The notes beneath the pieces were generated by a model. That model was not told the origin of the DNA, searched no databases, and saw nothing but the letters and a program-made list of their open reading frames with translations. Below are positions 1,171 to 62,371 of a DNA stretch of 64,000 bases, piece by piece. The DNA comes from Nitrosospira briensis (GTDB lineage Bacteria; Pseudomonadota; Gammaproteobacteria; Burkholderiales; Nitrosomonadaceae). Positions within the stretch are counted from its first letter, which is position 1. Each line of letters begins with the position of its first letter. The stretch covers positions 901,852 through 965,851 of the forward strand of contig NZ_FOVJ01000001.1 in NCBI RefSeq assembly GCF_900115125.1, in the 5' to 3' direction. Position numbers and translations under genes: made by a program.

Positions 1171-1639
1171 TTTTTACCTCCATCTATTTAATCCCCCCGA
1201 CGACGTGGGGAGTCTGCTCCAGAATATGCAGAAAAGATTAACCTTACCGTTATTCATAGCAGGGAAAGGCTTCATGTCAATCTTGAGCAACATGGAGAAG
1301 GGCATAAAGAATATACAAAACCGTCTTTCTGGTTTTTATGGCTGCTTTTCTGGGAGCTGAGTTGTAACCCTTTCACGGTAGTTGAGATTTCACAAGACCA
1401 CTCGCCGCAAAACGGACAAAACTGCGAAAGAGTTTGGGATAAGTCTAGGTTGTAATGATGGTACAGCTCTCGATGGATTCTCCCGTATCGGTAATTAGCC
1501 TTTATATGGCCGGATCTCATCTCTCGTTAGGGCTAGCCCTAGTGATAGATCATTTACCCCCCTAAAAGCCTATCACTAGACACATTTTTGACTTCTGATC
1601 GGACCTCTATCACATCATCTTTAATCCGTGTGAGAAAAA
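1171..1639. other. Gene-poor stretch with a 10-bp inverted repeat
   Basis: No convincing gene. An 82-codon frame on the minus strand (1272-1520) has a CxxC pair (FCPFC) but no ribosome site and no recognisable family. At 1539-1548 and 1570-1579 lies a perfect 10-bp inverted repeat, CTAGTGATAG and CTATCACTAG, separated by 21 bases, about 60 bases upstream of the resolvase relic. It may be an old operator or a res-type recombination half-site pair. Confidence 0.45.
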
Positions 1640-1812
1640 ATGATCATTGGCTACGTAAGAACTTCAACTATCGATCAAACGACCGGTTTCGAGGCACAGC
1701 TCAAGGAACTCGAAGGTATCAAGTGTCAAAAAATCTTCCGGGAATAGACTCATCGCTTGGCGTTCGTACACAGCTAGAAACGGCACTGGAGTTCATGCGG
1801 GAAAGCCGACAT
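1640..1812 (+). pseudogene. Serine recombinase (resolvase/invertase) N-terminal relic
   Basis: From ATG at 1640 the translation begins MIIGYVRTSTIDQ, the catalytic N-terminus of resolvase/invertase serine recombinases; the serine of VRTST is the usual nucleophile position. After FRE an in-frame TAG follows (1745-1747). One frame over, from about 1753, the text continues SSLGVRTQLETALEFMRE, which is what follows in intact resolvases. The gene thus carries a nonsense codon and a frameshift and is cut after about 60 codons, with the DNA-binding domain missing. It is a dead remnant of a transposon or plasmid resolvase and marks an old insertion next to the copper oxidase gene. Confidence 0.85.
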
Positions 1813-45600: not shown

Positions 45601-47895
45601 ATGTCTCTTTCCCGGCAACTCTGGCTGACTGTCATATTGGTAACGCTGACCAGTTTTACTGGCGGCTTTGCCATAAGCCTGCTCAGCACGCAAAGCTATC
45701 TCGAGCAGCAACTCCATCGGAAAAATATCGATAGCGCCAATTCCCTCGCGCATTCCATCTCCCAGCTAAGCAAGGACCCGGTCACGATCGGTTTGCAGAT
45801 CGCGGCACTTTTCGACAGCGGCCAATACGAAACGATCTCGATCACCTCGCCCGATGGCAGAGTGATTACAGAAAGGGTCCAAGACCGGGTAGACATTACT
45901 GTTCCCGAATGGTTTGTTGATCTCTTCCCTATTCGCGCTGAACCGGGCCAGGCTCAGATCTCTGACAGCTGGATGCATTTTGGTGTCATCAAGGTAGTAA
46001 GCCAGACCCGGCTCGCCCATCTGGCCCTGTGGAATCAAGCGGAAACCCTGCTACTCTGGTTTCTGGCTGCTGGCCTCTCCTGCGGGCTCATCGGCATGCT
46101 GATGCTCCAACGCATCAAAAAACCGTTGTCCACGATGGTCGAACAGGCTGAAGCTATTACCGAACGCCGCTTTCTCACCATTTCCGAGCCTCGCATACCC
46201 GAACTCCGCAGCATTGCACGGGCCACGAACGACATGATAAGACGTCTGCATAACAGGGCCATTGAGGAAACAGCCCGGCTGGAAACCTTGCATAAGCAGA
46301 TAAATTACGATCCGGTCACTGGCCTCGCCAATCGCGAGTACTTCATGAACCGGCTTGCCGAAATTGTGGGCGGCGGAGATACCCCTGACCATGCAGGGGA
46401 AAAAGAAGCTGCACCCGGCACAAGCATAAGCGGGGAAGATGTCACCCCTGGAGTGAGCGCAAGGGTTGTTGCCGGAAGCGGAGACGAGGCACCCGCCGCC
46501 CCGGGCACTGGAAGTGAAGTCGCTGCTACCGCAAGCGCTACCGAAGGCGCCTCAACCGGGGCAACCGCAGCAAGCGAGGGAGATGAAGCGGCCATCCCAG
46601 CCGAGGGTATTGAAGCGGCTCCTGAAGTTATTATCCCGGTCGAGCGCGGTCAGCTTATCGCTCCAAATGAGAATGGCAAAGCTGTCGCCGAACCGGATCA
46701 AGAGGAAGCTGTTCGAGAACATATAGCGGCAGAGGCGAGCAAGCGGCAAAATGGTATTCTTTTCCTCGTACGCCTCAATAATCTGCAAGAGATCAACCAG
46801 AAACTGGGACGCACAGAGACAAACAACCTGCTCCGGCAGGTAGCGGCCCTCATGGGCAAGACCGCCGCCGAAGCCTCTTCGGATAATGAATCTTCCGCTT
46901 CTCTCGCCGCCCGCCTGAATGGATCGGATTTTGCACTTCTCATCCCCGACATGGATGATGCGGGCCGCATCGCCAACCAGTTGACAAGGGAACTCACCGC
47001 TCTGTCCCTACAAACGGGGGAGGCCGTGAAGGATCTGTATCACATTGGCGCCGTTCGCTACCAGCGCGGCGATAAGCTTGGCGAGCTCTTCGCCAAGGCT
47101 GACCTTGCACTGAGCACCGCCGAGCAAACGGGCGTCAATGCCTGGCATGCTATTGCCGCGCAACCCGGTCATCCACCTGCTCCGGCCGTCAATATCGGCG
47201 ATTGGCGGCATATTTTCAAGGATGCATTTGCAGAAGATCGCTTCACGCTGGCTCTTTACCCTGTCGTGGGACGCAGTGGCGCGCCATTGCATCAGGAAGC
47301 GTTTGTTCGCATGCAGGCCCAGCGCAATGGAGGCTGGCTGGAGGCAGGCGACTTCGTCAATATCGCAGTTCGCCTCAGTCTCACCGGCCCCCTGGACATG
47401 GCGGTCATTCGCCATGCAATTGAATCATTGCAGTCGGGTACCGATGACCTCGCGGTCAACCTCTCGATTGAAACCGTCGCTAACTGGGAGTTCCGGAATA
47501 AACTGGCAGCGTTGCTGGGCCAGTTTCCGGATCTGTGCCGGCGGCTCTGGATTGAAGTACCGGAGTATGGCGCCTTTCGCAAATTTGAAGCGTTTCGTGA
47601 TTTCTGTCATACCTTCGGATCGCTCGGCTGCCGCACGGGCATCGAGCATTTTGGTCACCAGTTTAGCGAGCTTCGGCAACTCACGGGTCTCGGCCTGGGT
47701 TATATCAAGGTAGACGCCGCCTTCGTGCACGGCATCCATCAGAACAAGAATAACCAGCGCTTTCTGAAAAACTTGTGCAGGCTGGCGCACGACCAGGGCG
47801 TTGTCGTAATTGCACTGGGCGCACAAGCTGAAGCTGAGCGGAAGGCATTGGTAAAGCTCGGCTTCGATGGCGTTACCGGACCCGGCATACGATAA
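45601..47895 (+). CDS. LapD-like degenerate GGDEF-EAL membrane receptor
   Basis: 764 residues. TM1 is at 8-28, a periplasmic LapD/MoxY-type domain at 30-145, TM2 at 148-168, then HAMP at 170-222. A GGDEF domain follows (YDPVTGLANREYF at 236), but its signature is NGSDF at 440-444, so cyclase activity is unlikely. The EAL part is also degenerate (EAFVRMQ; no DDFG). Such proteins bind c-di-GMP without turning it over and signal outward, as LapD does to LapG. An Ala/Glu/Gly-rich insert of about 125 residues (257-383) splits the GGDEF domain after its first helix. No lapG is adjacent. Confidence 0.87.
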   Translation: MSLSRQLWLTVILVTLTSFTGGFAISLLSTQSYLEQQLHRKNIDSANSLAHSISQLSKDPVTIGLQIAALFDSGQYETISITSPDGRVITERVQDRVDITVPEWFVDLFPIRAEPGQAQISDSWMHFGVIKVVSQTRLAHLALWNQAETLLLWFLAAGLSCGLIGMLMLQRIKKPLSTMVEQAEAITERRFLTISEPRIPELRSIARATNDMIRRLHNRAIEETARLETLHKQINYDPVTGLANREYFMNRLAEIVGGGDTPDHAGEKEAAPGTSISGEDVTPGVSARVVAGSGDEAPAAPGTGSEVAATASATEGASTGATAASEGDEAAIPAEGIEAAPEVIIPVERGQLIAPNENGKAVAEPDQEEAVREHIAAEASKRQNGILFLVRLNNLQEINQKLGRTETNNLLRQVAALMGKTAAEASSDNESSASLAARLNGSDFALLIPDMDDAGRIANQLTRELTALSLQTGEAVKDLYHIGAVRYQRGDKLGELFAKADLALSTAEQTGVNAWHAIAAQPGHPPAPAVNIGDWRHIFKDAFAEDRFTLALYPVVGRSGAPLHQEAFVRMQAQRNGGWLEAGDFVNIAVRLSLTGPLDMAVIRHAIESLQSGTDDLAVNLSIETVANWEFRNKLAALLGQFPDLCRRLWIEVPEYGAFRKFEAFRDFCHTFGSLGCRTGIEHFGHQFSELRQLTGLGLGYIKVDAAFVHGIHQNKNNQRFLKNLCRLAHDQGVVVIALGAQAEAERKALVKLGFDGVTGPGIR

Positions 47896-51753: not shown

Positions 51754-52083
51754 ATGCAGGGGACCTTTCTCAAATTCTACGTAAGCGAATACCGCGAACA
51801 CAAGGGCATTCTTTTATTCGAGTGGCTCCTGGAACGCGCAAAAAGATTCGGCTTTAACGGTGGCACGGCCATGCGCGCGATAGCCGGTTTCGGGCGTCAT
51901 GGAGTGTTGCACGAAGAAACCTTTCTTGAGCTCTCGGCTGACCTTCCGGTCGAGGTGAGCTTCGTCCTGAGCGAGGAGGAAGCCGCGCAGTTTCTCGATT
52001 TGCTGCAGGCAGAAGACGTGGACCTGTTTTACGTCAAATTCCCCGTTGAGTACGGATTTTTGCCATTCATAATACAAGATTAA
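51754..52083 (+). CDS. DUF190 family protein
   Basis: 109 residues, PII-like fold family DUF190. Signatures are FYVSEYREHKGILLFEWLLERAKRFG, GGTAMRAIAGFGRHG and a C-terminal FYVKFPVEYGFL. These small cytosolic proteins are frequently encoded beside crcB and are thought to regulate transport. GGAGG lies nine bases before the ATG. Confidence 0.92.
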   Translation: MQGTFLKFYVSEYREHKGILLFEWLLERAKRFGFNGGTAMRAIAGFGRHGVLHEETFLELSADLPVEVSFVLSEEEAAQFLDLLQAEDVDLFYVKFPVEYGFLPFIIQD

Positions 52084-52141: not shown

Positions 52142-52273
52142 TTACTTTTTTCCGGCTTGCACCCATGCGAGAGTGGAACGAATGGGGGAATCGCCCTCAG
52201 GCGCGGTGGATGTTCGTTCCCCACTCCACGTCATGCCAATTACCAGTGCCACGATAATGATTTTCACGCGCAT
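52142..52273 (-). CDS. 43-residue exported peptide, copy 1
   Basis: From ATG at 52273: MRVKIIIVALVIGMTWS, a short hydrophobic signal-like segment, followed by a hydrophilic variable tail ending in KK. Length and N-terminus match the peptide at 52948-53079 exactly (both 43 residues, shared IIIVALVIGM). The tail is diverged, which supports a translated gene pair. The ribosome site is weak (GGAAA). It is preceded by a terminator and a structured leader. The product is probably inserted in or exported across the inner membrane. Function unknown. Confidence 0.6.
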   Translation of the reverse strand: MRVKIIIVALVIGMTWSGERTSTAPEGDSPIRSTLAWVQAGKK

Positions 52274-52318
52274 GTTTCCATTGTTGAACAACATTATTAC
52301 AATTTGAGCGGTGTACGT

Positions 52319-52353
52319 AAAAAAAGCCCGGCGCAGGGTCACTGCTGCCGGGC
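52319..52353 (-). terminator. Intrinsic terminator inside leader, copy 1
   Basis: On the minus strand GCCCGGC and GCCGGGC (52326-52332 and 52347-52353) pair and are followed by seven T. It ends the structured leader about 45 bases before the 43-residue peptide. Confidence 0.8.
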
Positions 52354-52483
52354 CGTGGCGTTTGCTGCAGTGGGGAAGTTGGCTCTTGCCGCCAGCCCAT
52401 CCCCAATTGCATCTTACCCTTTCGAGGCGGCTTGCCTATTGGACTAAGGTACTACTCTGGAGTAGTTGGATAGTGTAAGGTTC
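52354..52483 (-). ncRNA. Structured leader or small RNA, copy 1
   Basis: Shares ordered blocks with 53161-53284: GAACCTT, GTCCAATAGGCAA, GGTAAGATGC and CAAACGCCAC, all before a terminator. The plus-strand arms TGGGGA (52371-52376) and TCCCCA (52400-52405), and the inner GGCT (52381-52384) and AGCC (52394-52397), can pair. The second copy keeps the pairing with different bases. It may be a riboswitch controlling the downstream peptide or a free small RNA. No known class was recognised. Confidence 0.6.
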
Positions 52484-52947
52484 GAGGAAGCTTCGTAATG
52501 ATGCGAAGCTGACACTTCGCAGGGGTACAACTGAGTAGACCGGGTTATGCCCGGGTATCAAAAATGTCGGGGTGCGGCGACGGAAATCGTCCACATTCTG
52601 AAAGATCGATAGCGGTACGCCAAATATATTGACGTACTGGTTTCCGGGATTTTCTGGGGCTCCAGATTGAATTCTGCGTTATTTGAGTCCGACTGTTTCA
52701 GCATTGCACCATCCTGATTAGGTCGTTCCGTTCATGCTATATTTTCCGCGTCATGTTCACCCCGCGCCCCTCCGCAGGGTATGACAACGAGATCAATCCC
52801 CAATGTGGGAGTCAGCGCCACGTAACGCAATCGTACCTGAAAATTCAGCATGGCAATTCAATCCTGCTTAATTGGTCGCGCTACCGACATCAAAGGCCAC
52901 GTAATCGCCTGTAAGTAAAAATTGAGTAGCTTACCGTTCCTGCCAAT
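52484..52947. other. Spacer between the two copies
   Basis: No gene recognised. A 7-bp inverted repeat AGCTTCG...CGAAGCT lies near 52488-52509. The promoter of copy 1 should be at the left end of this stretch on the minus strand. Confidence 0.4.
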
Positions 52948-53079
52948 CTACTTCTTTTCCCCCTGCCCCGACGCGAGGGCGATACGAACCGAGGCACCGC
53001 CATCCGCTTTACTCGACGCTTGCTCATTACTCCATACCATGCCGATTACCAATGCCACGATAATGATCTTTGCACGCAC
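52948..53079 (-). CDS. 43-residue exported peptide, copy 2
   Basis: From GTG at 53079, with AGGAG seven bases upstream: MRAKIIIVALVIGMVWS followed by a Ser/Ala/Gly-rich tail ending EKK. It is the same length as copy 1, with a conserved hydrophobic N-terminus and a diverged tail. The good ribosome site argues that this frame is translated. The upstream in-frame ATGs lack a ribosome site. Confidence 0.65.
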   Translation of the reverse strand: MRAKIIIVALVIGMVWSNEQASSKADGGASVRIALASGQGEKK

Positions 53080-53126
53080 GCTGCTACTCCTGAATGACAT
53101 TATGACTATAACGGCAGGAAATCGAG

Positions 53127-53160
53127 AAAAAAAAGCCCGGCGCAAGATCGTTGGCCGGGC
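53127..53160 (-). terminator. Intrinsic terminator inside leader, copy 2
   Basis: GCCCGGC (53135-53141) and GCCGGGC (53154-53160) pair and are followed on the minus strand by eight T. The stem is identical to copy 1 while the loop differs. Confidence 0.8.
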
Positions 53161-53284
53161 AGTGGCGTTTGTTGCAACCGGGTCAGCTATTTCTCCCGTT
53201 AGCCATACCCAAGCCGCATCTTACCCCTTCTGGGTTTGTTGCCTATTGGACTGAAGTACACTCTCGCGATCCACCGAAAGGTTC
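53161..53284 (-). ncRNA. Structured leader or small RNA, copy 2
   Basis: Same block order as copy 1. GGGT (53180-53183) pairs with ACCC (53207-53210), replacing GGGGA/TCCCC of copy 1. An inner stem (53085-like spacing, at 53185-53189 with 53200-53204) is 5 bp on the minus strand including one G-U. A short hairpin with CCC/GGG replaces CCT/AGG. These compensatory changes support a conserved RNA fold on the minus strand. Confidence 0.6.
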
Positions 53285-53456: not shown

Positions 53457-56400
53457 ATGGCGGAACAGCAAGACGAGAAACCCAGACTGCCGCTAGCCGG
53501 GCTCGCTATCCTGGTGACGATGATAGGAGGCTTGCTCGTCTATCAGGACTTCGCGCTTAAAACCTCCCGGCCAGTCGACAAGGAAAAGACGAACTATCTA
53601 TCCCTGGACAAGGACCAGGTGCAGGCGCGCCTTTGGCAAGACCCATTCGAGGCTGTCGCGACACATCGTATCAATGAGCAAAAGCGGTCCAGCGAGTCCG
53701 GTAAAACAACCGGACCGGCAACTATTAATGATTTAAGCATCAATGATTTCATTACCCGCATCAAGGAATCCATAGGAACCTTCCGGGAAGTTCGTATCCT
53801 GCCGGTGTTTGTGGACGGGAGCCCATATTCCAGCGGCGCCGAATCAAGGCTCAACGACCGATATGCCCTCATATCGGCGTTGGGCGCGGCGGGCTATGTG
53901 CCGGAATCAGGGGACCACATCCATGTTTTCAGGTGGGATCGGGAGGAAGAGAGAAAGAAGACAGCGCGACAACAGAGGGATGAATCGAGCGTACTTGTTC
54001 CCGTGGAGTTGTTTCACCCGAAGGCAAAAATCCGGGATGAACCATATGGCAAGCAGGTTCTCGTTTTATGGCTCAAAGCCCAGGATTTCAGCGAGAAACC
54101 GCTCCAGTCCCTGAATGCGCTTCTGGAAGAGTTGAATAGAGCGTTCATCAAAACTCCGCCTGAAATAAAACCAATGTATCGCATACTGGGGCCCCGGTTT
54201 TCGACCGGGCTGAGCGCCATGATGAAAGAACTGCAGGCCATCCAGGCCGGGGCTTGTATTCCTCAATTCAGGCAACTGAACGACGCGAAATTCTATTCCC
54301 CCTGGGCAACGGCGGACGGTACCTTTTTACTGGATTATTCGCTCGATCCGCCTGACTTGGATCAGGCTGGCAATGTCAAAGAAACAGGCAGGACCGTCAA
54401 GGAAATATTCGAGTGCGCAGGAATCGATTTGACCAGGACGATCAAGACTGACACCGTGCTGGCAGAGCAGCTTTTCGAGGAATTGAAACGCCGTGCGGTG
54501 GATTTGCAGGACTGTCCAGCCAATACCTGTAAACATAGGGTCGCACTGATTTCAGAATGGGACACCCTTTATGGGCGCTCTTTGCCACGCATATTTGCCG
54601 CTGTGGTCCAGAATAACGGTCTCGGCAAAAGCCCTGGAATCACCGCCCAAGTCAATAAACTACGCGAAGACGAGTGGCCCGACTGGGTTTCCCGATACTC
54701 GTACCTGATGGGATTGGATGGAGAATTGCCAGCCAGGACAAGTGACATGGAATCAGGGCCAACTCAGGCAACAAACCTGCTGGAGCACCAAAATCAGCAG
54801 TCCCGGCAAATGCCGGCCGAGATGCCTGAAGGCCGTAGTCAGCTAGATTACGTTCGCAGGCTTGCGTTGTCCCTGAAGCAAGAGCAGGAGCAGCGTGGCG
54901 AGGAATTCAGGGCAATCGGCGTACTGGGCAGCGATGTGTATGATAAGTTGTTAATATTGCAGGCATTGCGTCCGATATTTCCACGCGCGATCTTCTTTAC
55001 CACCGATCTGAATGCCAGGCTGACCCATCCCTCGCAATGGCAATGGACGCGCAATCTCATCGTTGCGTCGCACTTCGGACTGGAACTTCAACAGGATCTT
55101 CAAACTCCTATTCCGCCGTTCCGGGATAGTTACCAGACCTCGTTGTTTTACGCCTCGTTGTGGGCTCTGGATCACTTCAGATCGCCCGGCCGCGCGGATT
55201 ATTTCCAGCTGAGGATGGGAGAAGATGCCGATAAAAAATTCTCCAGGAACACGGACCCACGATTGTATGAAGTCGGGAGGCACGGCGCTTTTGACATCAG
55301 TCCCGGTGCGAACTCCGCGTCCGGGGATTATTCAAGCATTCATCCACCGCGGCCCGATCTAAATTCCGACCCATGGCAGAGCCTGAAGCGGGCGGGCCTA
55401 GAGTTCATCACGGTCATCTCTCTCATCCTGGCCGCTATGCTGACCAGTAGCGTGGCGGCAAATGTCTTTACCAAACTGGCCTGGAAACTGTTCGGAATGG
55501 CCATCGTTATTGGAACAATCTGTTACGGCCTGGTGCTGTGGATCAGATGGACGATACCGAATGTCGCAGAAAACGAGCCCTTTGTGTTGAATGAAGGAAT
55601 CAGTGCGTGGCCAACGGTGGTAATTCGCCTGTTCGCTATTGCCATGACCCTTGTATTTCTCCGGTATTCCTGGCAAAAGTTGAAGGATAACGAAAAAGCC
55701 CTGGCGCGTGCCTTCGGATTCGAAGACAAGGATAAGCTCGCGGATAGACTCGATCCCATCCCTCTGATATTTTCCGCCAGGTTCCTTGACTGCTGTGTAG
55801 GACTGCACAGGTGGCATCCGCAAGCTGGCGGCCAGATTGACGCTGCGCTTCTATGGTGGAGAAGCGCAATGCATAGCGAAATCAGAATGGTCGCAGCGCG
55901 GATTGTGCCACAGGTTGCCATTGCTTTCGCTGTCGCTTGGCTGTTGCTGGAACTGTTCGGTTTTCCCTATATACCTTGCCGGGGCGAGGCCTGCGCAAAA
56001 ATCAATTATGTGAGCACGGTGTTCAGTTCGGTTGCGATGCTCGTCCTGATATTCTACGTGATCGATGCCACCAGAATTTGCCTGAAATGGGTTGACTGCA
56101 TTGGCATGGGGAAAGTTTTGTGGTCCGACGGCACCCGGCTAAAAATAGCCAAGGAGCGAGGCGTTAGCGAGAAGAACCTGGATGAATGGCTGGGCATCGA
56201 ATTGATTGCGGAACGCACTGCCCTCCTCGGTAAGTTTATTTACTTTCCTTTCATTATCATGCTGTTGCTAGGCGTTGCGCGCCACACCTACCTCGATAAC
56301 TGGGATTTTTCGACTGCGCTCGTCATTATCTTTACGCTCAGCGCGATACTTATTTTCCTGAATAGCATGTTATTACGACGGTCGGCCGAAACAGCCAAAT

Positions 56401-56630
56401 GGCGAGCCATCGAACGCCTTGAAGCCAGGCTTATCGGATTGTCTGACCAAACACCGGATGAGCGAAAAGAGAAGCGGCAGATCGAGTGGGTAATCGCCGC
56501 GATCAAAAACAACCGTAGAGGCGCCTTTCTTCCCTTTACTCAGCATCCGGTATTCGGCGCCGCGATAGCTTTGCCATCCGGCGCATATGGCATTGTGCTC
56601 TTGCTCGAGTATCTGGCAACGAGTTTCTGA
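53457..56630 (+). CDS. Large hypothetical membrane protein with periplasmic receptor-like part
   Basis: 1057 residues. TM1 is at about 11-30, then about 600 residues outside the membrane, then seven or eight TM segments in the last 400 residues. The external part contains segments reminiscent of type I periplasmic binding folds (RVALISEWDTLYGRSLP near 361, IGVLGSDVYDKLLILQAL near 485, AIFFTTDLNARL near 510). It could be a sensor or a transporter-like receptor. No catalytic motif was found. There is no clear ribosome site before the ATG. The two following genes on the same strand probably belong with it. Confidence 0.72.
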   Translation: MAEQQDEKPRLPLAGLAILVTMIGGLLVYQDFALKTSRPVDKEKTNYLSLDKDQVQARLWQDPFEAVATHRINEQKRSSESGKTTGPATINDLSINDFITRIKESIGTFREVRILPVFVDGSPYSSGAESRLNDRYALISALGAAGYVPESGDHIHVFRWDREEERKKTARQQRDESSVLVPVELFHPKAKIRDEPYGKQVLVLWLKAQDFSEKPLQSLNALLEELNRAFIKTPPEIKPMYRILGPRFSTGLSAMMKELQAIQAGACIPQFRQLNDAKFYSPWATADGTFLLDYSLDPPDLDQAGNVKETGRTVKEIFECAGIDLTRTIKTDTVLAEQLFEELKRRAVDLQDCPANTCKHRVALISEWDTLYGRSLPRIFAAVVQNNGLGKSPGITAQVNKLREDEWPDWVSRYSYLMGLDGELPARTSDMESGPTQATNLLEHQNQQSRQMPAEMPEGRSQLDYVRRLALSLKQEQEQRGEEFRAIGVLGSDVYDKLLILQALRPIFPRAIFFTTDLNARLTHPSQWQWTRNLIVASHFGLELQQDLQTPIPPFRDSYQTSLFYASLWALDHFRSPGRADYFQLRMGEDADKKFSRNTDPRLYEVGRHGAFDISPGANSASGDYSSIHPPRPDLNSDPWQSLKRAGLEFITVISLILAAMLTSSVAANVFTKLAWKLFGMAIVIGTICYGLVLWIRWTIPNVAENEPFVLNEGISAWPTVVIRLFAIAMTLVFLRYSWQKLKDNEKALARAFGFEDKDKLADRLDPIPLIFSARFLDCCVGLHRWHPQAGGQIDAALLWWRSAMHSEIRMVAARIVPQVAIAFAVAWLLLELFGFPYIPCRGEACAKINYVSTVFSSVAMLVLIFYVIDATRICLKWVDCIGMGKVLWSDGTRLKIAKERGVSEKNLDEWLGIELIAERTALLGKFIYFPFIIMLLLGVARHTYLDNWDFSTALVIIFTLSAILIFLNSMLLRRSAETAKWRAIERLEARLIGLSDQTPDERKEKRQIEWVIAAIKNNRRGAFLPFTQHPVFGAAIALPSGAYGIVLLLEYLATSF

Positions 56631-58054: not shown

Positions 58055-61000
58055 TTAAATGTTAAACAAATACCTGCACATCATAATTCCACTCCAAGTG
58101 GCTACAACAAGGCTAGCATTAGGCCCAACTTCAATATCTGTTACCACTGAACCGCAGTCAATAACAGTTGTAACTCTACCATCCCATACCCGCACAGTGT
58201 TATCCCTTCCACCGGAAACAATTACCCGCCGATCACCCAGCTTAACCACAACAATGGCAGTCACGGCACCTATATGACCCTTCAATGGCTGGCCGAGGGG
58301 TGCCCCGGAGGCCAAGTCCCATATACGAATGGTTTTATCCCCGCCGCCTGAGACAATCACCGGCCGACCATCAAGCGTACTAACAGTCAAGGCATACACG
58401 CTGCCCCTATGGCCCAACAATGGTTTGCCCAAGGGTGCGCCCGCAGCTAAATCCCATACCCGCACGGCGCTATCCTCTCCGGCAGAAACGATTACCGATC
58501 GACCATCAAGTACACCCACGGTCACCGCATACACGCTGCCTCCATGGCCCCGCAATGGATCACCCAAGGGGGTGCCCGCACCCAAATCCCATACCTGCAC
58601 GGTGCTATCCTCTCCGCCAGAAACGATTACCGATCGACCATCAAGCAGACTCACAGTCACAGCATTCACGCCGCCGTGATAACCCCCAAATGTCTGGCTC
58701 AAGGGTTTGCCCCCCGCCACATCCCATACCTGCATGCTATCCCAACCACCAGAAACAATTACCAGCCGACCATTGAGCGTGCCCGCCGCTAGGGTAACGC
58801 AACGTTGATCACTCTCAAATGGGTCACCGATGGGAGTGCCCGCTCCCAAATCCCACACCCTCACAATACCATCCCAATCACCTGTGATAGCAACTGATCG
58901 GCGATCGAGCGTACCCACAGCTACGGTATTCACGATATTCTCGATATTTTGATGATGCCTCGATCGTTCACCGATGGGTGTTTCCACCGCCAAATCCCAT
59001 ATCCGCACCGTATTATCCCAACTACCAGAGACGATCATCGGCCTGTCATTCAGTGTACTTACGGCCACGGCCTCTACGCTGCCTTGATGACCCTCTAGTG
59101 GCTCGCCGACGGGTACGCCCGCTGCTAAATCCCATACCCTTACGGTTTTATCCCCCTCGCCGGTGATGATCACTGGTCGGCCATCGAGTGTGCCCACGGT
59201 TATGGCATTCACGCCGCTTTGAGCCTTTAATGGCTCTCCGAGCGGCGCGCCCTCAACCAAATCCCATAGACGCACAGTTTTATCCGCGCTGCCAGATATC
59301 GCTACAGGACTGCCATTGAGGATAGCCACAGCTACAGCATCCACACGGCCTTCATGACCCTCTAATGGCTTACCAACGGACGTGCCATCAGCCAAATCCC
59401 ACAGGCGTACGGTTTTATCCTCACCGCCAGAAACGATCATTGACCGACCATTGAGCATACCTATGGCAAGGGCATATACGCTGCCATCATGACCCTCCAA
59501 TGGCTCCCCGATAGGTGTGCCAGCAGCCAAATCCCATAGCTGTATGGTTTTATCCTCACTGCCAGAAACGATTACAGATCGACCATTGAGCGTACCTGCG
59601 GCTATAGCAAGCACGCTGCCCCGATGGCCCCACAATTCGCGCAGGGGAATGCCCAGGGCTAAATCCCACACTCTCACGGTCCTATCCCAACCGCCAGAAA
59701 TGATTACTGGTCGGCCATCGAGTACGCTCACAGTCACGGCAAACACATCACCTAAGTGACCCCTCAATGGCTCGCCCACGAGCGTGCCCGCAGCCAAATC
59801 CCAGACTCGGATGGTATTATCTTGACCACCGGAGATGATTACCGGTCGGCCATTGTAAGTAGCGGTAACAATCGCATGTACTTCACCTCTATTCCCTTTT
59901 AGGACACGATGAGCCACGCTGTGCTGCCACCGAGCCCACACGACCCTCCATGTCTGGCCGAGCCGCAATTGCGCAAACCCATCTGCGAAAATATTTTCCG
60001 TAAGTTGCCGCGCTGTCATCTCAAGATAGGAGGCACGTTCAGCAGCAGCACTAGTGCTCATGTAATGAAAACCTGTTTGATATACGCGTGTTGGCGCGTC
60101 AGGCAATTGCTCATGGGTTAGCTGTATCGCTCGTAGCAGCCGATTTGGCTCGGCCGCTACGAGGTAAAGAGGAAGATCTATCAATCCACTTAGCTTGCTC
60201 GCTGCCGCTGCATGTGTGGATAGGTAATTTCGGGTATATGCTGGCGCGCTCACCCAATCCCTGCTCTCGTTGCAGGAATTCATTGGTACCAGACCAACAA
60301 GTGTGTTAACGATGCAAGTCTGAATTTCCTTTGAACGTTTCTCATCCCGTAGATATTCAGCCAGCGCTTCGTGATACAAACGGTAAACTGAGATGCCGCC
60401 TTCCCGAGCCTCGACGACGTAAGCGCCAACATGATCGAGTAGCAAACCGATATCGTCGTTGTCATAGGCTCCCGACGCTGACTGCCCCCGTCCGGCAATC
60501 GCGTTAGCGAGAGGTAACCAAAGATTTTCCCACGGGATGCCTTCACCTTCGGCATATGCGAGCGGTCGCAGTAAGGCCATCACTTTCTTGCGGTCGAGAT
60601 CAATATCCTTCCGTGAATTGAAGCGTTCAAGGTCCACCCAAAAGGCCTCGCCTACCTCATCAGGAAATTTGTAACGGTCGGTATCAACCGGCTCATCGCT
60701 CTCAGTCAGGGTCGACACAACGATCCGCGCTATCAGAAACACTTTTCCTGCTTTTGCGGCTACGATCTCAGCAACCCTGCGTGCAAGTTGTGGTCGATTA
60801 CGATACGGCGTAGCGCGGGCTGGTTCATCCACTGCTAAAAGCCGTTGCATCACATAACGGGCGATGTCCTCCCTGCCCAGATATTTTTCATCATTCAGGT
60901 TGATCTCAATCGTTCTGCCCCCTAGTTTTTGAACACAGCGCCCAGGATGGTCTGGCCGGGTATCAGGCCGCGTCCCGATCAGGAGCCAAAGATGCGGAAA

Positions 61001-62371
61001 TCCAGTAAGTCTTCTTAATAATCGTTCGGCTATCTCATCACGCTCTTTTGCCTCATCCAGGGCGTCAATGACGATGGTACAGCGCTTATTACGCTTTGCC
61101 AGGACTTCAACTAGTTCATCTACCCGGTTTGTCTTCAGTCCCGTGGCTGCCGCAATAATCCTGACCACTTCATCCAGCGACTTCTGGCGCGCATGGACTG
61201 CAATATCAACAACGCCTTGAGGAGGAACGGTATCTTCTGGAACAGCTTTAAGAGCACCCATGTTTTCCATGGGTTCGCGATATTGCGGATCAGAAAGCGT
61301 TACAAGGCGGGCGAGAAGCGCTGATTTACCTGTACCAGGTCCGCCGGTCACAACATGGGCTTTACCGCCAGATTGCGTAGCTTTAAGCCACTGCACCAAC
61401 TCCCGCAAAGCTGCTTCACGACCGGTGAAATATGAAACCTCCCCATAGACTTCTGCACCACGTGCGCGCGGAACCCAATGATCAATTAGGTCGCGCTGCC
61501 GTTGAGATTCAATATCAATACCTTCGGGAGTAGATGAATCGTAGCGCGGGTTGGGAAGGAAGCGCGGAAATTCTCTTAGTGGTGGGGCCACACTCCAGAC
61601 CGCGCTCTGATGAGGATGGCGCTGATCAAATATCTCGTTCACGTATTTAATCAACGATGGAGCTTCGAGATACTCTTGAGTTCTGCCGCCAAATTGTCCC
61701 TTGGGGTTACGAATGGCTTCTGTGAAGGCGTTTGCGAAGGCGCCCTGTGAAGCTTCATCTTTAGCACGAGCAGCTGAGATAAAAACGAAGCCGAAAGGTA
61801 TTTCAGCTTGCCAAGCGCGGGAACATGTTACCTTACCCGCTAGTGAAGTCAGGTCAATAATCCCCTGACCTGCATAACAGGTATCCAATATGATCATGAC
61901 CTGCTGGACCGGGGAATCGAGAATAATTCGAACGAGTTCTTCCGCTGGGAACGCGGTGGAGGCTAGCCGATTTAACCTGGAATCAGAGGTTAGTAAATAA
62001 TGCCTATCCTGATGCGTTTCGCCGTGGCCAGAGTAGTAAACCACTACCCTATCCGCCGGGGTTCGCCTTGGCTCACCAAACCATGCGCCAAGCGCTTCCT
62101 TTAGCCCAGTTGAGGTAGGGTCCGTGCCCAGTTCAGGCAACACCCTCGTATAACCGAGCGCGTTACTCGTTAAACAGTCGACGATTAAATTAATGTCATC
62201 ATTTACTGACGCCAGGTCGGCATCTTCAATGTAAGAATAGTGCGATGTGCCGGCCGCAATGAGATATGCCGTTTCATTTTTTAAGCTATCGTTCGCCGAT
62301 TGCTGCCGCAATGGCACGTCCCGTTTCTTGGGCAGTGAGGTAGGGCCTGATGTCGTGGGCGGTTGCACCAT
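58055..62371 (-). CDS. Caspase-like protease fused to STAND NTPase and WD40 repeats
   Basis: 1438 residues. Residues about 30-260 are a caspase-like (C14) domain with His116 in YYSGHGE and Cys165 in LDTCYAGQG. A STAND/NACHT-like NTPase follows: P-loop GGPGTGKS at 343-350, Walker B TIVIDALDE at about 432-440, GTRPD at 466. A helical region leads to 13 WD40 repeats plus a partial fourteenth from about residue 845, enough for two seven-blade propellers. This is the build of signal-triggered proteases in bacterial conflict or regulated cell death: the repeats sense a ligand, the NTPase oligomerises, the protease cuts. The start overlaps the hydrolase gene by 86 bases. Confidence 0.93.
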   Translation of the reverse strand: MVQPPTTSGPTSLPKKRDVPLRQQSANDSLKNETAYLIAAGTSHYSYIEDADLASVNDDINLIVDCLTSNALGYTRVLPELGTDPTSTGLKEALGAWFGEPRRTPADRVVVYYSGHGETHQDRHYLLTSDSRLNRLASTAFPAEELVRIILDSPVQQVMIILDTCYAGQGIIDLTSLAGKVTCSRAWQAEIPFGFVFISAARAKDEASQGAFANAFTEAIRNPKGQFGGRTQEYLEAPSLIKYVNEIFDQRHPHQSAVWSVAPPLREFPRFLPNPRYDSSTPEGIDIESQRQRDLIDHWVPRARGAEVYGEVSYFTGREAALRELVQWLKATQSGGKAHVVTGGPGTGKSALLARLVTLSDPQYREPMENMGALKAVPEDTVPPQGVVDIAVHARQKSLDEVVRIIAAATGLKTNRVDELVEVLAKRNKRCTIVIDALDEAKERDEIAERLLRRLTGFPHLWLLIGTRPDTRPDHPGRCVQKLGGRTIEINLNDEKYLGREDIARYVMQRLLAVDEPARATPYRNRPQLARRVAEIVAAKAGKVFLIARIVVSTLTESDEPVDTDRYKFPDEVGEAFWVDLERFNSRKDIDLDRKKVMALLRPLAYAEGEGIPWENLWLPLANAIAGRGQSASGAYDNDDIGLLLDHVGAYVVEAREGGISVYRLYHEALAEYLRDEKRSKEIQTCIVNTLVGLVPMNSCNESRDWVSAPAYTRNYLSTHAAAASKLSGLIDLPLYLVAAEPNRLLRAIQLTHEQLPDAPTRVYQTGFHYMSTSAAAERASYLEMTARQLTENIFADGFAQLRLGQTWRVVWARWQHSVAHRVLKGNRGEVHAIVTATYNGRPVIISGGQDNTIRVWDLAAGTLVGEPLRGHLGDVFAVTVSVLDGRPVIISGGWDRTVRVWDLALGIPLRELWGHRGSVLAIAAGTLNGRSVIVSGSEDKTIQLWDLAAGTPIGEPLEGHDGSVYALAIGMLNGRSMIVSGGEDKTVRLWDLADGTSVGKPLEGHEGRVDAVAVAILNGSPVAISGSADKTVRLWDLVEGAPLGEPLKAQSGVNAITVGTLDGRPVIITGEGDKTVRVWDLAAGVPVGEPLEGHQGSVEAVAVSTLNDRPMIVSGSWDNTVRIWDLAVETPIGERSRHHQNIENIVNTVAVGTLDRRSVAITGDWDGIVRVWDLGAGTPIGDPFESDQRCVTLAAGTLNGRLVIVSGGWDSMQVWDVAGGKPLSQTFGGYHGGVNAVTVSLLDGRSVIVSGGEDSTVQVWDLGAGTPLGDPLRGHGGSVYAVTVGVLDGRSVIVSAGEDSAVRVWDLAAGAPLGKPLLGHRGSVYALTVSTLDGRPVIVSGGGDKTIRIWDLASGAPLGQPLKGHIGAVTAIVVVKLGDRRVIVSGGRDNTVRVWDGRVTTVIDCGSVVTDIEVGPNASLVVATWSGIMMCRYLFNI

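Follow-up and report, generated by a model that had tools for sequence, protein, structure and literature searches.

We found that a duplicated element of Nitrosospira briensis is likely to encode two trans-acting small RNAs (sRNAs) that are co-expressed with a biofilm/exopolysaccharide regulon, each followed by an optional membrane peptide gene. The reading draws on a promoter whose sequence and geometry are shared by a genus-wide regulon, the architecture of a terminated RNA, coding constraint on the peptide, and a conserved gene neighborhood. The sRNA family, its promoter signature, and its link to PEP-CTERM and LapA-type matrix genes are absent from Rfam and from the literature searched, and to that extent are previously undescribed. 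The literature search, which did not extend to most subscription papers, returned nothing relevant on Nitrosospira sRNAs or on sRNAs with PEP-CTERM/exosortase systems.

Two copies of one arrangement

The window, i.e., the whole stretch of DNA that was analyzed (64,000 nucleotides), contains two copies of one arrangement in the same orientation on the minus strand, 807 bp apart (Table 1). A preliminary description had recognized both, and their similarity (BLAST E = 2.1e-14) is not due to chance. Each copy consists, in order, of a box GTAC(C/T)T(T/C)AGTCCAATAGGCAA, a spacer, the hexamer TAAGAT, a hairpin, the linker CAAACGCCAC, a terminator, about 50-60 nt, and a 43-codon open reading frame (ORF). 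The order described earlier (box, GGTAAGATGC, larger stem, linker, terminator, ORF) is present in both. The terminator is GCCCGGC...GCCGGGC followed by seven or eight T in both copies. The larger stem is GGGGA/TCCCC in copy 1 and GGGT/ACCC in copy 2; the other pairs cited earlier, CCT/AGG against CCC/GGG, sit in the promoter spacer. A DUF190 gene flanks the locus on one side and the gene for a 1057-aa protein on the other; a Pfam search with the latter gave no significant match. Elsewhere in the window, positions 58055-62371 (minus strand) encode a 1438-aa protein with WD40 beta-propeller repeats; by eye, its N-terminus looks caspase-like.

Table 1. Features of the two copies and their flanks, with positions in the window (R1, promoter model; R2, sRNA covariance model)
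Feature	Position	Strand	Basis
DUF190 gene, CrcB gene beyond	51754..52083	+	Pfam DUF190 E = 2.7e-20; adjacent in orthologous loci
Copy 1 peptide ORF, ATG start, MRVKIIIVALVIGMTWSGERTSTAPEGDSPIRSTLAWVQAGKK	52142..52273	-	Orthologues; dS >> dN in membrane segment
Copy 1 predicted sRNA	52319..52404	-	Folding; R2 E = 1.7e-15 (copy in R2 training set)
Copy 1 sRNA, 5' hairpin	52404-52373	-	
Copy 1 sRNA, CAAACGCCAC	52364-52355	-	
Copy 1 sRNA, terminator	52354-52319	-	
Copy 1 -10 hexamer TAAGAT	52411..52416	-	Spacing identical to copy 2
Copy 1 regulatory box GTACCTTAGTCCAATAGGCAA	52432..52452	-	R1 E = 2.1e-10
Copy 2 peptide ORF, GTG start, MRAKIIIVALVIGMVWSNEQASSKADGGASVRIALASGQGEKK	52948..53079	-	Orthologues in 9 other genomes; dS >> dN in membrane segment
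Copy 2 predicted sRNA, about 85 nt	53127..53211	-	Folding; R2 E = 9.7e-14 (copy in R2 training set); terminator with 8 T; start inferred
Copy 2 sRNA, 5' hairpin	53210-53180	-	
Copy 2 sRNA, CAAACGCCAC	53171-53162	-	
Copy 2 sRNA, terminator	53160-53127	-	
Copy 2 -10 hexamer TAAGAT	53218..53223	-	Box start 36 bp away in almost all homologues
Copy 2 regulatory box GTACTTCAGTCCAATAGGCAA	53239..53259	-	R1 E = 4.7e-13 in own genome; invariant spacing to -10
1057-aa protein gene, divergent, conserved flank	53457..56630	+	tblastn 43-84% identity in orthologous loci

A promoter shared across the genus

With copy 2 as the query, many short matches limited to the box were found in all but one of the genomes of the genus set (23 Nitrosospira/Nitrosovibrio genomes). 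The aligned boxes give a 22-bp, activator-like consensus, TGTACTTCAGTCCAATAGGCAA. TAAGAT or a close variant lies 36 bp from the GTAC of the box, a distance that is invariant or nearly so among homologues. No recognizable -35 hexamer was detected in the aligned promoters and the box covers the -35 position, which is what a class II activator site would show. Box and predicted -10 stand at a fixed distance before the hairpin in all members of the genus, a pattern that suggests a promoter of its own for each RNA.

A sequence-only promoter model of 50 nt (R1) matches 23/23 genomes of the genus, at 5-23 sites each, and none of 199 other genomes of the order. None of 397 other genomes contains the exact 17-mer of the box or a reversed control 17-mer. 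Because the exact box is absent from other genomes of the order and occurs only rarely outside the genus, it is mostly a genus-level signal.

Judged by these alignments, the first half of the repeated block is a predicted promoter shared by the whole regulon. The preliminary description had read this block, from GTCCAATAGGCAA through a small hairpin to GGTAAGATGC, as RNA; it is promoter and not transcribed RNA core. Similarly, GTCCAATAGGCAA and GGTAAGAT, once taken for RNA parts, are promoter parts that occur before protein genes too. The small hairpin (CCT/AGG, CCC/GGG) falls before the -10 hexamer, and only 4.5% of the 111 homologous promoters form its three pairs. Overall, 3-bp hairpins are found in the spacers of 43/111 promoters, versus 40.5 expected from shuffled spacers. 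We rejected it as an RNA structure, given pairs no better than those of shuffled sequence and not kept in promoter homologues. The motif GAACCTT was also dropped as part of the element: its distance to the box differs between the copies, it has no fixed position, and it is missing in the nearest relatives.

Genes under the box

We collected 111 distinct promoters across the genus. About 40 lead within roughly 160 nt to an intrinsic terminator; the remainder precede protein genes. The latter include genes for several PEP-CTERM proteins, two of which carry the TIGR02595 sorting domain above its cut-off, and for a subtilase, acetyltransferase-like proteins, and Gly/His-rich secreted proteins. The seven strongest R1 sites in the N. 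briensis genome include copy 1, copy 2, and a third sRNA (C10:862671). The other four precede a PEP-CTERM gene (C10:771447), an acetyltransferase-like gene (C13:143074), the gene for a secreted Gly/His-rich protein (C16:22381), and that for a protein of an unknown family (C17:108566).

Genes for one family of small proteins (...TAYVFEESE..IRESGLVPEWV..., about 127 aa) lie immediately below the box in many species (loci L063, L086, L103, L121, L125, L155, L157, L169, L172, L175, and L177); an NCBIfam search with one member gave no match. At three further loci (L180, L092, and L093), an sRNA gene with a CCUCC loop lies near a second box and a PEP-CTERM protein gene (...VPEPTTFALLGLGLAGLGFSRRKKS).

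A family of predicted small RNAs

About 40 paralogues and orthologues across the genus are alike in promoter and terminator and vary in their 5' domains, and they usually lack a shared gene downstream. The predicted terminated products are 70-150 nt, with a hairpin near the predicted start, and the family-wide terminator is GCCCGG...(GCAG-loop-CTGC)...CCGGGC. Three branches of RNA were distinguished. The first, to which the window copies belong, carries an invariant (C)AAACGCCA(C) and occurs in 14 genomes, counting near-identical loci. The second is found at another conserved locus, and the third has the loop UUUCCUCCAU. CCUCC is present in 15/41 of the 5' domains, often in a loop, versus 1.9 expected from shuffles; the window copies are without it. 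In genome G021, a family sRNA (L023, about 1510-1800, plus strand) is interrupted by a MITE-like insertion with inverted ends GGGCCTGTTAACACTTATTTCGCA ... TGCGAAATAAGTGTTAACAGGCCC.

Stems are retained despite differing sequence (GGGGA/UCCCC, GGGU/ACCC, GGGAGU/ACUCCC, and AAGGAAGAU/AUCUUCCUU). In the H1 and terminator stems, both-side changes keep the pairing in a few pairs, in alignments that are short and in which H1 aligns poorly. Because the 5' H1 hairpins do not align, formal covariation is thin, and when mixed RNA classes are folded to a consensus, mainly the terminator emerges. The folding energy of the 5' domains is modestly better than that of shuffles (mean z of -1.15; -0.34 and -0.51 for the window copies).

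We built an sRNA covariance model (R2) without promoter sequence, with base pairs that cover the terminator only. R2 scores promoter-linked RNAs outside its training set (e.g., E = 2.0e-15 in G001, 5.5e-15 in G020, and 9.3e-15 in G011). It matches 22/23 genomes of the genus versus 1/59 others, the latter weakly. Weaker matches include terminators without a listed box nearby, and these may be ordinary terminators.

The preliminary description knew no matching class, and this stands: a search of 4227 Rfam families gave no match at the gathering score and only chance-level matches at a relaxed score. As grounds for refuting its reading, it had named a lack of further copies and a match to a known riboswitch family; neither applies, as all genomes of the genus contain further copies and Rfam was negative. 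In the N. briensis genome, a perfect complement to the linker (GTGGCGTTTGYTG) is present only in the two copies themselves, and no target was found. Across the genus, its search returned self matches and scattered single sites.

The downstream peptide and alternative readings

The 43-residue peptide ORF is present in 10/23 genomes of the genus, always downstream of a branch-1 RNA and on the same strand. In codons 2-17 (R-x-KIIIVALVIGMVW..., the membrane segment), synonymous differences per site (pS) are 0.55 and non-synonymous differences (pN) 0.12, so translation and selection of this segment are very likely. The tail is variable in both sequence and length; in genome G003, ATC stands where the start codon would be. 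The peptide is small and hydrophobic, with one predicted membrane span and a polar tail; a Pfam search gave no match. sRNA orthologues in at least four genomes (G011, G015, G016, and G022) have no peptide match. Given this distribution, the peptide is probably an accessory single-span membrane peptide, produced by read-through or from its own weak promoter.

These observations bear on the proposal, made in the preliminary description, of a conserved leader RNA with transcription control, taken here as attenuation or a riboswitch in which a conditional terminator would control the peptide gene. The strong terminator, the identical order in both copies, and an ORF about 60 nt past the terminator on the same strand in 10 genomes are what such a leader predicts. 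However, the RNA is kept in genomes that lack the peptide, paralogues with equal promoter and terminator have unrelated genes or none downstream, and Rfam holds no match. Moreover, the 5' domain varies strongly among paralogues, unlike a ligand-binding aptamer. With no downstream gene common to the family and a 5' domain that is not aptamer-like, we consider this reading unlikely. The many terminated relatives without a common downstream gene are better accounted for by a family of small RNAs than by a leader or riboswitch.

The same early proposal had as its second form a small RNA plus a toxin-like peptide. Its first part fits our results, and the "toxin-like" label is unsupported. Applied strictly, the label would imply a type I toxin-antitoxin-like unit with the peptide as membrane toxin and the RNA as antitoxin, for which a small hydrophobic peptide with a single span and polar tail, an adjoining small RNA, and tandem duplication could be cited. 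Yet the RNA lies on the strand of the peptide and is not antisense to it, it is retained where the peptide is absent, and its promoter is part of a matrix-gene regulon. Short complementarity between linker and ORF (GCCAC/GTGGC) is missing in orthologues, and we rejected it as a pairing because it is not conserved. Given an RNA that is not antisense and persists without the peptide, this reading is very improbable.

Least credible of all is a mobile or selfish repeat (MITE/REP-like) spread by transposition: there are several copies per genome and a tandem duplication in the window, but no terminal inverted repeats were found, and conserved gene neighborhoods across species, together with a box placed before the start codons of different genes at fixed -10 spacing, disfavor it.

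The box outside the genus and a candidate regulator

In a collection of 84,980 species, the 21-mer GTACTTYRGTCCAATAGGCAR was found outside the genus on three MAG contigs (Parasulfuritortus, Propionivibrio, and Burkholderiaceae). All three occurrences lie <100 bp before a gene for a giant retention-module/T1SS (LapA/BapA-type) adhesin. NCBIfam retention_LapA was confirmed in two of the adhesins (E = 3e-33 and 1.6e-29), and the N-terminal pattern of the third matches by eye. Matrix and surface genes thus share the box, PEP-CTERM genes within the genus and LapA-type adhesins outside it.

In two of the three cases, the gene directly upstream of the box encodes a GerE (LuxR-type) regulator. At loci L184 and L185, a LuxR-type regulator gene is followed by the box and then by a LapA-type adhesin gene; L184 also has LapD close by. 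Homologues of this regulator were identified in 23/23 genomes of the genus, one of them at G000:C9:76360-76788; those whose context was examined lie near a TIGR03013-family XrtA/PEP-CTERM glycosyltransferase gene. The box is beside the regulator gene in only 1/30 loci. Because the box precedes PEP-CTERM and adhesin genes and a regulator gene adjoins it outside the genus, it is most likely the site of a biofilm/exopolysaccharide regulator. Gene neighborhood points to the LuxR-type protein as a candidate binder. The outside LuxR-type gene resembles known regulators in scoring to the models for NarL, EpsA (XrtB/PEP-CTERM-associated, 2.7e-14), and CsgD (5.7e-14). However, none of its scores reaches the curated cut-off; the gene is therefore not orthologous to EpsA or CsgD.

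At 45601-47895 (plus strand), the window encodes a LapD-like c-di-GMP receptor (Pfam LapD_MoxY_N 4.7e-35) with GGDEF and EAL domains and a long insertion, which fits a Lap-type adhesin system in this genome; no adhesin gene was identified in the window.

Proposed mechanism

The preferred reading, sRNAs expressed along with a matrix regulon, leads to a mechanism in which we infer transcription, the identity of the activator, action by base pairing, and the expression and function of the peptide. Each copy would be an independently promoted, Rho-independently terminated sRNA gene of about 85 nt, optionally followed by the gene for a 43-residue single-span membrane peptide. An activator, which is most likely of the LuxR/FixJ type and a regulator of biofilm or exopolysaccharide, would bind the 22-bp box over the -35 region and drive the TAAGAT promoter. 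The same activator would also turn on the genes for PEP-CTERM and other surface proteins. Made along with this regulon, the RNAs probably base-pair in trans. Candidate seeds are the UUUCCUCCAU loop in one branch, which is complementary to Shine-Dalgarno sequences, and the invariant, putatively unpaired linker CAAACGCCAC in the branch of the window. The peptide may be produced via terminator read-through or from its own weak promoter.

More tentatively, a master regulator of biofilm or exopolysaccharide could run this multi-copy family in Nitrosospira so that it retunes translation via anti-Shine-Dalgarno or linker seeds, with the crcB-DUF190 locus as a dual unit in which read-through also yields the membrane peptide. 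We regard this extended version as possible, but doubtful. If the preferred reading is true, it would supply the biofilm/matrix program of an important soil ammonia oxidizer with a small-RNA arm, together with a defined promoter signature and a list of target genes. In addition, a candidate LuxR-type regulator would be connected with the box that other Betaproteobacteria use upstream of LapA-type adhesins.

Comparison with known systems

The riboswitches and leaders of Rfam likewise combine a hairpin, a conserved single-stranded stretch, and a terminator before an ORF. The element differs from them in matching none of the 4227 families, and its conserved block is partly promoter DNA. Multi-copy sRNAs driven by a regulator are of a known kind, which includes Qrr, RsmX/Y/Z, and the cuckoo RNAs. 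The alphaproteobacterial "cuckoo" sRNAs are short, intrinsically terminated stem-loop RNAs present in several copies per genome, with C-rich loops. The family described here is also short, terminated, and multi-copy, and the loops of its CCUCC branch could pair with Shine-Dalgarno sequences. However, it belongs to another bacterial class, has another promoter, and lacks an Rfam match, and the window copies have no CCUCC loop. In Vibrio (Qrr) and Pseudomonas (RsmX/Y/Z), several sRNA genes are controlled by one transcription factor through an upstream box, and here too several sRNA genes share one upstream box. In contrast to the Rsm RNAs, no GGA-rich CsrA-type architecture was noted in a non-systematic look. 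The box is without sigma-54 elements and is not a GacA box, and the sRNAs beneath it are predicted to be co-regulated with PEP-CTERM and adhesin genes.
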